NCBI RefSeq assembly: GCF_002305895.1 | Contig: NZ_CP022203.1 | Coordinates: forward strand, 3,140,501-3,204,500 | Length of the DNA stretch: 64,000 nt | DNA from: Corallococcus macrosporus DSM 14697 | GTDB taxonomy: Bacteria > Myxococcota > Myxococcia > Myxococcales > Myxococcaceae | Direction: 5' to 3' | Position numbers and translations under genes: made by a program | Shown here: one piece after another, positions 45,654 through 49,660 of the stretch | Numbering within the stretch: position 1 is the first letter of the stretch | Layout of the letters: each line of letters begins with the position of its first letter | Notes under the pieces: model-generated | What the model saw: only the letters and a program-made list of their open reading frames with translations | Database searches by the model: none | Told to the model about the DNA's origin: nothing

Positions 45654-46544
45654 TCAGCCCATCAGCCGGTGGAGGCTCAGGTCCAGTCGGCTCACCACCA
45701 GCCCCAGCAGGCTCTCCACCTCGCGCCCGTCCAGCTTCAGCCGCGCGGCCAGCTCGCGCTGGGTCCGCTTCAGCAGCCGCTCCCGGGCCTGGGCCACGTG
45801 CCGCGCCACGCTGGAGCGCGGCTCCGCGTACAGCGTGGCGATGCGGTCCATGGTGAGGCCGTGGAGGTGGTGCAGCCGCAGCAGGGCGCGTTCCCGCTCG
45901 GACAGCGCCTCCAGCGCCACCTGGAGGGACTCCGACAGGGCCCGCCGCGAGTGGGCCTGGAGCACGTTGCGCTCGGGGTCGTCCCGGGACAGCAGGTGCT
46001 CCAGGGCCTCGGGCGGCGTGGAGGCCTGCTCGTGGCGGCCCGCCCGCGCCAGCAGCTCCCCGCCAATGCGCGAGGCGACGATGCGCACCCAGCCGCCCAG
46101 CGAGCCCCGGCCGGAGTACTCCGCGATTTTCGGCGCGCCGCCGTGGGCGCCCAAGAGCAGCCGCTGGCGCGTCACCTGGAGCACCTCGTCCACCTGCGCC
46201 GCGCTGTGGCGGGACAGCCGCGCCGCCGCCTTCTGGAGGACGTGTTTCTCGAAGAGCGCCAGCGCGTGCGGCTCGCCTCGCGCGCAGGCGCACGCCAGGT
46301 GGACGTCCTCGGCGTGGAGCTGGCGGAGCGCGTCCAGCGGGCACCCCTGCTCGCGCAGGTGCCGGCCCACGTGGTGCAACAGGGCCTCTGGAGATACCGC
46401 CACGGTGGGCCAGGCCGCGCGGCCTCTGGCCACCAGGTCCGTCAGCAGCGACTCCACGGCCGGCGTGGACCGCAGCGCCGCGTGCAGCGGCTCGGGCGCC
46501 CCCGCGAGCAGCAGCGCCGTCAGCGTGCCCGGAGCCGGGCTCAT
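45654..46544 (-). CDS. Sigma-70-family factor (Myxococcales kinase-associated type)
   Basis: 296 residues from ATG 46544. Its ATG overlaps the kinase stop by four bases (ATGA). The C-terminal region-4 HTH (EALSERERALLRLHHLHGLT, then LYAEPRSSVARHVAQARERL) is clear. Region 2 (about 120-180) is recognisable but divergent. The long N-terminal extension and overall shape resemble the Myxococcales family-1 sigma factors often found beside Ser/Thr kinases. It likely directs RNA polymerase to its own regulon, controlled by the upstream kinase. Confidence 0.83.
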   Translation of the reverse strand: MSPAPGTLTALLLAGAPEPLHAALRSTPAVESLLTDLVARGRAAWPTVAVSPEALLHHVGRHLREQGCPLDALRQLHAEDVHLACACARGEPHALALFEKHVLQKAAARLSRHSAAQVDEVLQVTRQRLLLGAHGGAPKIAEYSGRGSLGGWVRIVASRIGGELLARAGRHEQASTPPEALEHLLSRDDPERNVLQAHSRRALSESLQVALEALSERERALLRLHHLHGLTMDRIATLYAEPRSSVARHVAQARERLLKRTQRELAARLKLDGREVESLLGLVVSRLDLSLHRLMG

Positions 46545-49500
46545 CGGGTGACCTCGCTCACGCGGGGGAGGTGCCGTGCCTGCCAGGCCATGAGCTCCTC
46601 GTGCTCGCGCCGGGCGCGCGGGCCCTGGGCTTCCAGCCACGCCTTCGCCTCCAGGACGAGCGCCGAGGCCCGCGCCCGTTCATCCGGCGTGGGCCGCTCC
46701 CACAGGGCCCGGGCGAGCAGGAAGGACACCCGCGCCGCCTCCTTCCGGTCCAGCCACGCGCGGGCATGGATGCGCCGCGCGCGTTCGAGCAGCGGCGCGG
46801 CCCGCCCGGGCGCGCCCAGGCCCAGGTGGGCCTCGCCGAGGCAGGCCAAGTCCAGGGCGACGTCCGGGCTGTCCTCGCCCTGCGCGGCTTCATCCAGCGT
46901 GAGCGCCCGCTGGCAGCGGGTGAGCGCCGCCCGGAACGCGCCCGTCTCCAGGTCCACCCGGGCCAGGTCCCGCTCCACGCCGCACGCCACCACGCTGTCG
47001 GCGCCGTTCACCTGCTGGAGGAGGCTCAGCGCCTGCGTCAGGCTGCGCCGCGCCGCCGCGGGCCGGCCCGCGCGCAGGTGGATGAGGCCCAGGTTGCGCA
47101 GCGACATCTCCAGGCGGGGGGAGTCCTCGCCCACGCTGCGCTGGATGCGCTCCAGCGCCTGCTGGTTGTGGGCGAGCGCCTCGTCGAGCCGGTCCGAGTC
47201 ATAGGCCACCATGCCCAGGCCGCCGAGCGCGGTGACGGTGCTCGGGTGGTCCGGCCCCTTGCTGCGCTCGAAGATGGCCAGGGCCCGCGCGTAGTGGCTC
47301 CGGGCCTCGTCCAGCCGGCCCTCGCGGCGCAGCAGGCCGGCCAGGTTGTTGAGCGGCGCGGCCAGGCTCGCATGGTCCTCGCCGCGCGCGGCCTCCAGCA
47401 GCGCCAGCGAGCGCTGGAACGTCTCCCGCGCTTCCTGCGTGCGGCCCAGGTACATCAGCTCGGTGGCGATGTTGTTGAGGTTGAGCGCGAGCACCGGGTG
47501 CTCGGGGCTCCACTGGCGCTCCTGGAACGCGTGGGCCTGGGCCTCGCGGAAGAGCGCCAGCGCCTCCTCCGCGCGGAGCTGCCGCGAGCGCACCCGCCCC
47601 AGGCCGGTGAGGAAGTAGGTGACGCGCGGGCGCGAGGGGCCCGCCGTCCTTCGCGCCAGCGCGAGCCCTTGCGTGTACTCCGCGTCCGCTTCATCCAGCT
47701 TGCCCTGCACCAGCAGCAGGCCGCCCATGCGCAGGTGCAGGTCGGTGGCGATGTGCGGGAAGCGCTCGCGTCCCAGGCGCTCCACCGCGGCGCGGGCGTG
47801 GTGCACCAGCCGGTTCGCCTCGTCCATGCGCGCCATCTGGTCGCCCACCACCCACAGGAGGAGATTCCAGACGCGCGCCGCCGTCTCGTCGTCGCGGCCC
47901 GCCTCGGCGGCCCACAGCGCCTCGTAGAGGTGCTCCTCGGCCTCCCTGGGCCTGCCGGCGAGCCCGTGCGCATAGCCGTGCAGCGTGAGGACCTCGGCCT
48001 CCAGCGGGCGGTAGTCCAGCCCCTGGAGGTCCTGGAGCAGCGCGGTCGTCACCTCCAGGGCGCCGGGGTGGTTGCCCGCGTCCATGCGGGCCCGGGCCTC
48101 GGCCAGCTTGCGCCGCGCGGCGTCCACGCGCGGCCTCAGCGCCTCTGGAGGCTGGGGCCGGTTCGCCAGCTCCGGCGCGTCCCGGCAGCCGGACAGGCCC
48201 TCCAGGGACGCCACCATCCGCGGCGCGTTCTGCACCGTCCGCGCGTCCGCCGTCTCCAGCACGTCCACCACGGCGGCCAGGTCCCACAGCCGGGTGTCCA
48301 GACACGCCGCCGTCTGCCACGAGGCGCTGGCGTCGTCACGCGAGGCGATGCACGCGTCGGTGCGCAGCGTGCGCCAGGTCTCCGCGTGACGGTCCAGCGA
48401 TGTGGCCACCGCCTCCCATGCGGCGGCGGCGAAGGGCTTGTCCGTGGCGAGGAAGGCCGCGTGAATCCGCTCCCGGCGCTCCGGCCCCCAGACAGCGGAG
48501 AGCCGCGCGGCCTCCAACTCGCAGCCGGCCTGCCGCCGATGCGCGGCGACATAGCCCACGGTGAGCCCCAGCAGGCAGGCCACGGCGGCGGAGGCCCCCA
48601 CCCAGGCGCGGCGACGGCTGGCGCGTGGCGACAGCTCGGCCAGCAGCGCCTCCATCGACGCGAAGCGCTCCTCCGGCAGGGCGCGGAGCCCGCGCAGCAC
48701 CGCCTTCCTCACGCGGGCGGGGACCTTCGACTCGCGCTCCGGCGCGCGGATGCGGCCTTCCCGCGCGGCCTGCCCCAGGGCCTCCAGCGTCTGGCCCTCG
48801 AAGGGGCGCACCCCGTGGAGCGCTTCATGGAGCGCCACGCAGAAGCTGAACTGGTCCGAGCGCGCGTCCACGTCGTGGCCCTGGAGCTGCTCGGGCGCCA
48901 TGTACGCGGGCGTGCCCAGCAGCGCGCCCGAGTGCGTCAGCGGCGAGTCCACCAGCGAGCCCGACGTCGCCGCCTCGGGCGGACGCGCCGGCGTGGCGCC
49001 ACGGCCCGGCACCCGGCGGTGGGACGGACGCGCCAGCCCGAAGTCCGTCACCCGGACGCGCCCGTCGTTCCCCACCAGGACGTTGCCCGGCTTGAAGTCG
49101 CGGTGGACCAGCCCGGCGGCGTGGGCGGCCGCGAGCCCCCGGCCCGCGTCGATGAAGACGCGCACCACGTCCCGCCAGGGGCGCGGCGCCGTCAGCCACT
49201 CCGCCAGGGACGCGCCCTCCACCAGCTCCAGCGCCAGGAAGACGCAGTCGCCGCAGACGCCCACGTCGTGGACGGTGACGACGTTCGGGTGGGCCAGCCG
49301 GGCCAGGGCCTGGGCCTCGCGCAGCAGCCGCAGGCGCAGCTCCTCCAACTGCCGGCCCTCCGGACGCAGCAGCTTCAGCGCCACCCGCCGGTCCAGCTCC
49401 GGATCGTACGCCGCGTACACCTCGCCCATGGCGCCCCGGCCAATGCGCTCCCGCACCACGTAGCGTGACAGGTGGGTGCCCGCGGCGACCTGCGGCCCCT

Positions 49501-49660
49501 CCGCCAGCGGGGAGACGGCCTCCGACACACTGGCGCCCAGCGCCAGGTGCTCCTGGCAGCGCTCACAGCCCTCCACGTGGGCCAGCACGCGCGTCCGGTG
49601 TGCGTCCGGGAGCGCCCCCTCGAGGAAGTCGCTCAGTGTCGTCTCGCTCGGGCACTCCAT
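46541..49660 (-). CDS. Ser/Thr kinase with anti-sigma-type zinc motif and TPR domain
   Basis: 1039 residues. Residues 1-55 carry an Hx3Cx2C motif (His28, Cys32, Cys35 in HVEGCERCQ), the signature of zinc-binding anti-sigma domains. A Hanks-type kinase follows: GRGAMGEV loop (about 74-81), Lys96, HRD at 186-188 with Lys190, DFG at 206-208 and APE in GTPAYMAPEQL; all catalytic residues are present. A membrane helix (about 350-375) and many TPR-type repeats (about 480-1000) follow. It likely senses a signal through the TPR part and controls the downstream sigma factor; the coupling is by overlap. Confidence 0.9.
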   Translation of the reverse strand: MECPSETTLSDFLEGALPDAHRTRVLAHVEGCERCQEHLALGASVSEAVSPLAEGPQVAAGTHLSRYVVRERIGRGAMGEVYAAYDPELDRRVALKLLRPEGRQLEELRLRLLREAQALARLAHPNVVTVHDVGVCGDCVFLALELVEGASLAEWLTAPRPWRDVVRVFIDAGRGLAAAHAAGLVHRDFKPGNVLVGNDGRVRVTDFGLARPSHRRVPGRGATPARPPEAATSGSLVDSPLTHSGALLGTPAYMAPEQLQGHDVDARSDQFSFCVALHEALHGVRPFEGQTLEALGQAAREGRIRAPERESKVPARVRKAVLRGLRALPEERFASMEALLAELSPRASRRRAWVGASAAVACLLGLTVGYVAAHRRQAGCELEAARLSAVWGPERRERIHAAFLATDKPFAAAAWEAVATSLDRHAETWRTLRTDACIASRDDASASWQTAACLDTRLWDLAAVVDVLETADARTVQNAPRMVASLEGLSGCRDAPELANRPQPPEALRPRVDAARRKLAEARARMDAGNHPGALEVTTALLQDLQGLDYRPLEAEVLTLHGYAHGLAGRPREAEEHLYEALWAAEAGRDDETAARVWNLLLWVVGDQMARMDEANRLVHHARAAVERLGRERFPHIATDLHLRMGGLLLVQGKLDEADAEYTQGLALARRTAGPSRPRVTYFLTGLGRVRSRQLRAEEALALFREAQAHAFQERQWSPEHPVLALNLNNIATELMYLGRTQEARETFQRSLALLEAARGEDHASLAAPLNNLAGLLRREGRLDEARSHYARALAIFERSKGPDHPSTVTALGGLGMVAYDSDRLDEALAHNQQALERIQRSVGEDSPRLEMSLRNLGLIHLRAGRPAAARRSLTQALSLLQQVNGADSVVACGVERDLARVDLETGAFRAALTRCQRALTLDEAAQGEDSPDVALDLACLGEAHLGLGAPGRAAPLLERARRIHARAWLDRKEAARVSFLLARALWERPTPDERARASALVLEAKAWLEAQGPRARREHEELMAWQARHLPRVSEVTR

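Follow-up and report, generated by a model that had tools for sequence, protein, structure and literature searches.

Ser/Thr kinases with an anti-sigma-like zinc domain recur beside TIGR03001 sigma factors in Myxococcota and may dock and switch them

The DNA analysed here is a stretch of 64,000 nucleotides from the Corallococcus macrosporus DSM 14697 genome (the window; contig NZ_CP022203.1, positions 3,140,501 to 3,204,500). On its minus strand the gene for a Ser/Thr kinase that begins with a zinc motif of the anti-sigma type overlaps a sigma factor gene, and the question raised by this locus is whether one protein could both hold a sigma factor and switch it. We report that the sigma/zinc-kinase pair looks like a real and apparently unstudied signalling unit that recurs across the predatory soil bacteria of the phylum Myxococcota, where a genome often holds several copies. 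Some myxobacteria have a hundred or more Ser/Thr kinases, with few outputs known. The module would give a defined subset of these kinases (up to approximately 20 per genome) a direct connection to sigma factors of their own, and thereby predicts for many sensors together how a kinase signal could reach transcription. It also offers a case for whether an anti-sigma domain can become a kinase docking domain.

The window sigma factor matches the NCBIfam model TIGR03001 (Sig-70_gmx1; RNA polymerase sigma-70 factor, Myxococcales family 1) with 313.6 bits (cut-off 154.6) over model positions 1-243 of 244, and is thus a full-length member of a family with a purely taxonomic name. When this family was searched in 195 Myxococcota and 14 control genomes, members were found in 109 of the Myxococcota genomes, and the highest copy number in a genome was 21; a single-protein scan with the sigma gave eight named homologues. 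The initial annotation had proposed to look for the same domain order elsewhere, and the pair does recur: at 99 of 117 sampled loci, which were selected on the sigma factor alone, a zinc-motif kinase is encoded near the sigma gene. The gene orders at these 99 loci are kinase-to-sigma (34), sigma-to-kinase (25), divergent (33) and convergent (7), while several of the other 18 loci represent contig ends or split frames. All five strong TIGR03001 sigmas of the C. macrosporus genome (8.97 Mb, 116 kinase-domain matches) lie near a zinc-motif kinase. Moreover, in 12 genomes zinc domains (by profile) and sigma family members were searched for separately: of the 76 sigmas, 70 have a strong zinc-kinase match no more than 15 kb away and 69 have one within 8 kb, where random placement would give 0.9. 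Together these data support an association of the zinc domain with one sigma family that far exceeds chance.

Six sigmas of the 12 genomes have no zinc-kinase nearby. The unlinked sigmas in five genomes (L146, L154, L178, L183 and L187) are of the L040/L191 subtype, and in each of these genomes a zinc-kinase without such a sigma nearby (L210, L217, L216, L212 and L211) is of the L039/L040/L191 subtype, such that the subtype agrees in both the sigma and the kinase tree. These genomes form two clades and do not represent five independent events; nevertheless, the split pairs argue for functional pairing over mere linkage. They also bear on the explanation that the zinc domain is no sigma binder and instead serves kinase dimerisation or redox sensing, with the gene association reflecting co-regulation only. 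Such an explanation would accommodate the 17 of 92 zinc-kinases in the 12 genomes that have no TIGR03001 sigma within 15 kb, some of which are accounted for by split pairs or tandem copies and others not, as well as a sixth kinase in the C. macrosporus genome (L225:3691-7209, 1173 amino acids), which has no such sigma nearby and a weak zinc motif located approximately 250 residues N-terminal of the kinase domain. Pairing in every gene order and subtype-matched unlinked pairs are hard to square with co-regulation, however, and the closest known structures by sequence are nearly all sigma-binding domains (see below), so we consider this explanation very improbable.

The features of the window locus are as follows (window coordinates).
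46541..49660, minus strand: Ser/Thr kinase gene, 1039 amino acids, with zinc domain, kinase domain, one membrane helix, four-Cys region and TPR repeats in that order
49514..49660, minus strand: N-terminal zinc domain, residues 1-49 (zf-HC2 match, AlphaFold2, profile against PDB)
49556..49654, minus strand: putative zinc-ligand stretch Cys3, His28, Cys32 and Cys35, C-x24-H-x3-C-x2-C (sequence and homologue alignment)
48647..49462, minus strand: protein kinase domain, residues 67-338, with HRD (186), DFG (206) and GTPAYMAPE (249)
48542..48607, minus strand: predicted single transmembrane helix, residues ~352-373 (hydropathy and position)
48185..48523, minus strand: four-Cys region C-terminal to the membrane helix, with conserved C380, C437, C453 and C492
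46544..48118, minus strand: TPR repeat region, residue ~515 to the C-terminus
45654..46544, minus strand: sigma factor gene, 296 amino acids, TIGR03001, ATG at 46544
46176..46190, minus strand: sigma region 2.2 core D119-E120-xx-Q123, RNA polymerase (RNAP)-contact acids present
45675..45713, minus strand: sigma C-terminal extension with Ser278, Ser285 and Ser290, candidate phosphosites

The kinase frame and its length are as first annotated, and the ATGA overlap described between the kinase stop and the sigma start is real. A GTG at 46640, listed as the sigma start in the program-made list of open reading frames, was rejected; it would give no such overlap. A search of long frames for natural fusions of a sigma with a kinase gene gave L047, L048 and L049, which turned out to be overlapping frames.

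What is the zinc motif? The kinase N-terminus matches Pfam zf-HC2 (residues 9-36, E=1e-7, 32.4 bits, cut-off 22.2). The initial annotation had named an Hx3Cx2C motif of His28, Cys32 and Cys35, which is present as described, and had overlooked a probable fourth ligand, Cys3, in the first position. Cys3 stands 25 residues N-terminal of His28, and this Cys-to-His distance is the spacing of ChrR-type domains; the ChrR alignment in the profile search described below begins at residue 6. In an alignment of 62 diverse homologues, His28, Cys32 and Cys35 never vary and Cys3 is conserved in at least 90%, so that the conservation of the putative ligands exceeds chance. A profile built from the 62 homologues and searched against 177,635 PDB sequences gave only six sequences at E<10, of which five come from anti-sigma factors: RslA (1e-6), Myxococcus DdvA (7e-5), ChrR (two sequences) and RsiW, the sixth being a CHAT-domain protein (8rot). 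The zinc segment as a single sequence gave no match to the PDB. Of the 62 homologues, 51 give weak matches to the RsrA model, and the other recurring models are anti-sigma as well.

The fold of the N-terminus was also compared with known anti-sigma domains, as had been suggested. AlphaFold2 predicts three helices (residues 6-14, 19-31 and 33-49; predicted local distance difference test score ~90 up to residue 40) that form a bundle like those of ChrR, RsiW and RslA, followed by a low-confidence segment that links it to the kinase. Structure comparison gave Z-scores of 6.6 (RsiW), 5.4 (RslA) and 4.1 (ChrR) with high rmsd (root mean square deviation). The ten top Foldseek matches are all anti-sigma zinc domains; their E-values (0.9 or worse) are weak, which is not surprising for such a small domain, and no fold other than an anti-sigma domain matched better in the VIA/Foldseek lists. 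Taken together, these comparisons support homology between the N-terminal motif of the kinase and the zinc domains of anti-sigma factors. Four long frames elsewhere in the C. macrosporus genome (at 6147324, 6676920, 1144552 and 2439646) have the zinc motif and no kinase motif; together with the CHAT match this suggests that the zinc domain may also occur joined to signalling enzymes of other kinds.

The class I zinc anti-sigma factors (ChrR, RsrA, RslA, RsiW and Myxococcus DdvA) share with the window protein the C/H-x~25-H-x3-C-x2-C pattern and the predicted three-helix fold, and likewise often have a membrane helix with an outer sensor and a gene beside that of an extracytoplasmic function (ECF) sigma. 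According to PMC7406223, helix 1 of these factors touches sigma region 4 where it binds DNA, and helix 4 lies over the face by which sigma region 2 binds RNAP. The window protein differs in that a kinase domain is placed between zinc domain and membrane helix, and in that no helix past residue 49, i.e. no equivalent of helix 4, is present in the AlphaFold2 model; the linker to the kinase varies in length among homologues and its sequence is not conserved. Since the helix that would cover sigma region 2 is absent, the protein is better described as the carrier of an anti-sigma-like domain than as a class I anti-sigma factor.

This also affects the idea that the kinase is a classical anti-sigma factor with an inserted kinase domain, in which the zinc domain would fully sequester an active sigma and the kinase would phosphorylate its own N-terminus or linker, thereby releasing a sigma that is not itself a substrate. 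The homology of the zinc domain fits this idea, and so do the retained RNAP-contact acids, as a free sigma should then be active. The window protein lacks the helix that masks region 2, however, the linker is neither conserved nor predicted to be helical, and no explanation is given for the conserved Ser278 of the sigma; we therefore regard it as unlikely. The initial suggestion of one protein that sequesters and activates its sigma partner is thus upheld with respect to the anti-sigma homology, the association with a sigma family and the catalytic residues (see below), whereas full sequestration in the classical sense is doubtful because helix 4 is missing.

The remainder of the kinase protein is largely as first described: Pfam identifies Pkinase (residues 67-338, E=2e-36) and TPR_12 (E=1e-49, seven stretches in the C-terminal half), and the membrane helix is predicted in between. 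The catalytic Lys, the HRD Asp, the Asn and the DFG Asp are all present, and K-D-N-D is intact in 96 of 97 zinc-motif kinases, the remaining one deviating at a single aligned position. This supports a probable active kinase of the Hanks type. The four-Cys region, which the initial annotation lacks, is probably periplasmic, and four-Cys plus TPR is the sensor type in 57 of 75 long zinc-kinases. Other copies have a PilN-type domain, nSTAND1 together with FGE-sulfatase, or nothing past the kinase domain (L145), so the TPR array, which had been taken as part of the fusion, is not a required part of the layout. Judged from these domain orders, the conserved unit that any mechanism has to explain is zinc domain, active kinase and TIGR03001 sigma, with an interchangeable sensor. 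Among the variants, one of the five C. macrosporus zinc-kinases (L038:5938-7509, a frame of 524 amino acids) has a C-terminal T2SS-T3SS_pil_N domain in place of TPR and lies approximately 1.7 kb from its sigma. At L129, L139 and similar loci the zinc-kinases are approximately 1300 amino acids long, divergent to the sigma and without a membrane helix after the kinase; L129, the only member of this subtype that was scanned, has the nSTAND1 and FGE-sulfatase domains.

Could the sigma be inactive until it is phosphorylated? In the ECF43 pairs EcfP-PknT of Vibrio parahaemolyticus and EcfK-PknS of Xanthomonas citri a sigma gene likewise lies beside that of a Hanks-type Ser/Thr kinase with an intact core, and phosphothreonine substitutes for the missing charge of region 2.2 (PMC13147305, PMC8999054). 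By analogy, the zinc domain would be a recruiter or a structural cap, and the adjoining kinase with intact catalytic residues would charge the sigma. Unlike the ECF43 sigmas, which lack the acidic region 2.2 motif, the TIGR03001 sigmas keep the acids (position 119 in 126 of 137 homologues, position 120 in 136 of 137), and no conserved Ser or Thr is present in region 2.2 among the 137. The sigma therefore need not gain charge by phosphorylation there as ECF43 does, and with neither a neutral region 2.2 nor its conserved Thr, activation of this kind appears quite unlikely. The TIGR03001 pairs further differ from ECF43 in the N- and C-terminal extensions of the sigmas and in the anti-sigma-type zinc domain of the kinases. 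A Cys in the LACAC motif of the sigma (Cys87; window 46284-46286) is Cys in 104 of the 137 homologues and otherwise mostly Ala.

The C-terminal extension past sigma region 4, which contains Ser278, Ser285 and Ser290, provides other candidate phosphosites. Ser278 is Ser in 129 of the 137 homologues and ranks 13 in conservation among 278 columns. It is substituted in sigmas without a known kinase partner, L206 and L207 (Gln) and L122 (Glu), and among kinase-paired sigmas only in L041 (Glu), L120 and L123. As the kinase-less sigmas are divergent and two of them are sisters, this loss is only a hint of a link to the kinase.

On balance we lean towards a single-protein signalling unit in which the zinc domain would act as a docking site for the sigma and the kinase would switch the docked sigma by phosphorylation. 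From the retention of helices 1-3 without helix 4 we infer a docking domain that grips sigma region 4. The cytoplasmic N-terminal zinc domain, derived from an anti-sigma factor and presumably binding zinc, would dock its TIGR03001 partner, most likely via region 4, with region 2 left to the kinase part or uncovered; this would keep the sigma off promoters and position it beside the kinase domain. A signal at the sensor region, here the putatively periplasmic four-Cys/TPR part, would activate the kinase, which would phosphorylate its own N-terminal segment, the sigma (perhaps at Ser278) or both; the altered docking would then allow the sigma to engage RNAP. That this amounts to a third mode beside sequestration and ECF43, with a truncated anti-sigma domain docking region 4, a kinase that modifies Ser278, interchangeable sensors and phylum-wide occurrence, is a more tentative proposal.

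Several points do not favour this reading, apart from the absent helix 4 and the 17 unlinked zinc-kinases. Motifs of the zf-HC2 type occur also outside anti-sigma factors, and the conservation of Ser278 might be structural. A single-chain model in which sigma and zinc domain were fused reached a predicted template modelling score of 0.56, too low to be a reliable guide to docking, its sigma part resembling ECF sigmas in Foldseek. Mutual-information covariation in 115 pairs (effective 56) is enriched in sigma region 4 equally for the kinase domain and the zinc domain. The fused model was built from L039, where sigma and kinase share one frame with only a stop between them, by reading the TGA as Trp; this is a modelling device, and no read-through is claimed. 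In this one subtype, which is found in several related genomes (L039:7082-7084, L040:6366-6368), the sigma stop TGA is followed by an in-frame kinase ATG 9-12 bases on.

Kinase-linked ECF sigmas, TPR kinases and zinc anti-sigma factors are each well known. The first are an accepted category, for which PMC8999054 lists six groups; kinase-linked groups other than ECF43 are ECF59, 61, 62, 217 and 283. Membrane Ser/Thr kinases with C-terminal TPR in myxobacteria and Planctomycetota have a cytoplasmic kinase, one membrane helix and presumed periplasmic TPR (PMC11032199); the window kinase shares this layout and differs by its zinc domain and its pairing with one sigma family. Our literature search found no functional study of the TIGR03001 family and no publication on the pair; the main ECF classification was outside this search, so an earlier assignment is possible. 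A close homologue of the window sigma (L081, 85% identity) is present in Myxococcus xanthus, a genetically manipulable host, and lies next to a kinase frame, the N-terminus of which is removed by a contig end. Finally, a TIGR03001 sigma frame interrupted by a TGA (G027:C1:6721996-6722496) lies between two tandem zinc-kinases and is probably a decayed copy.

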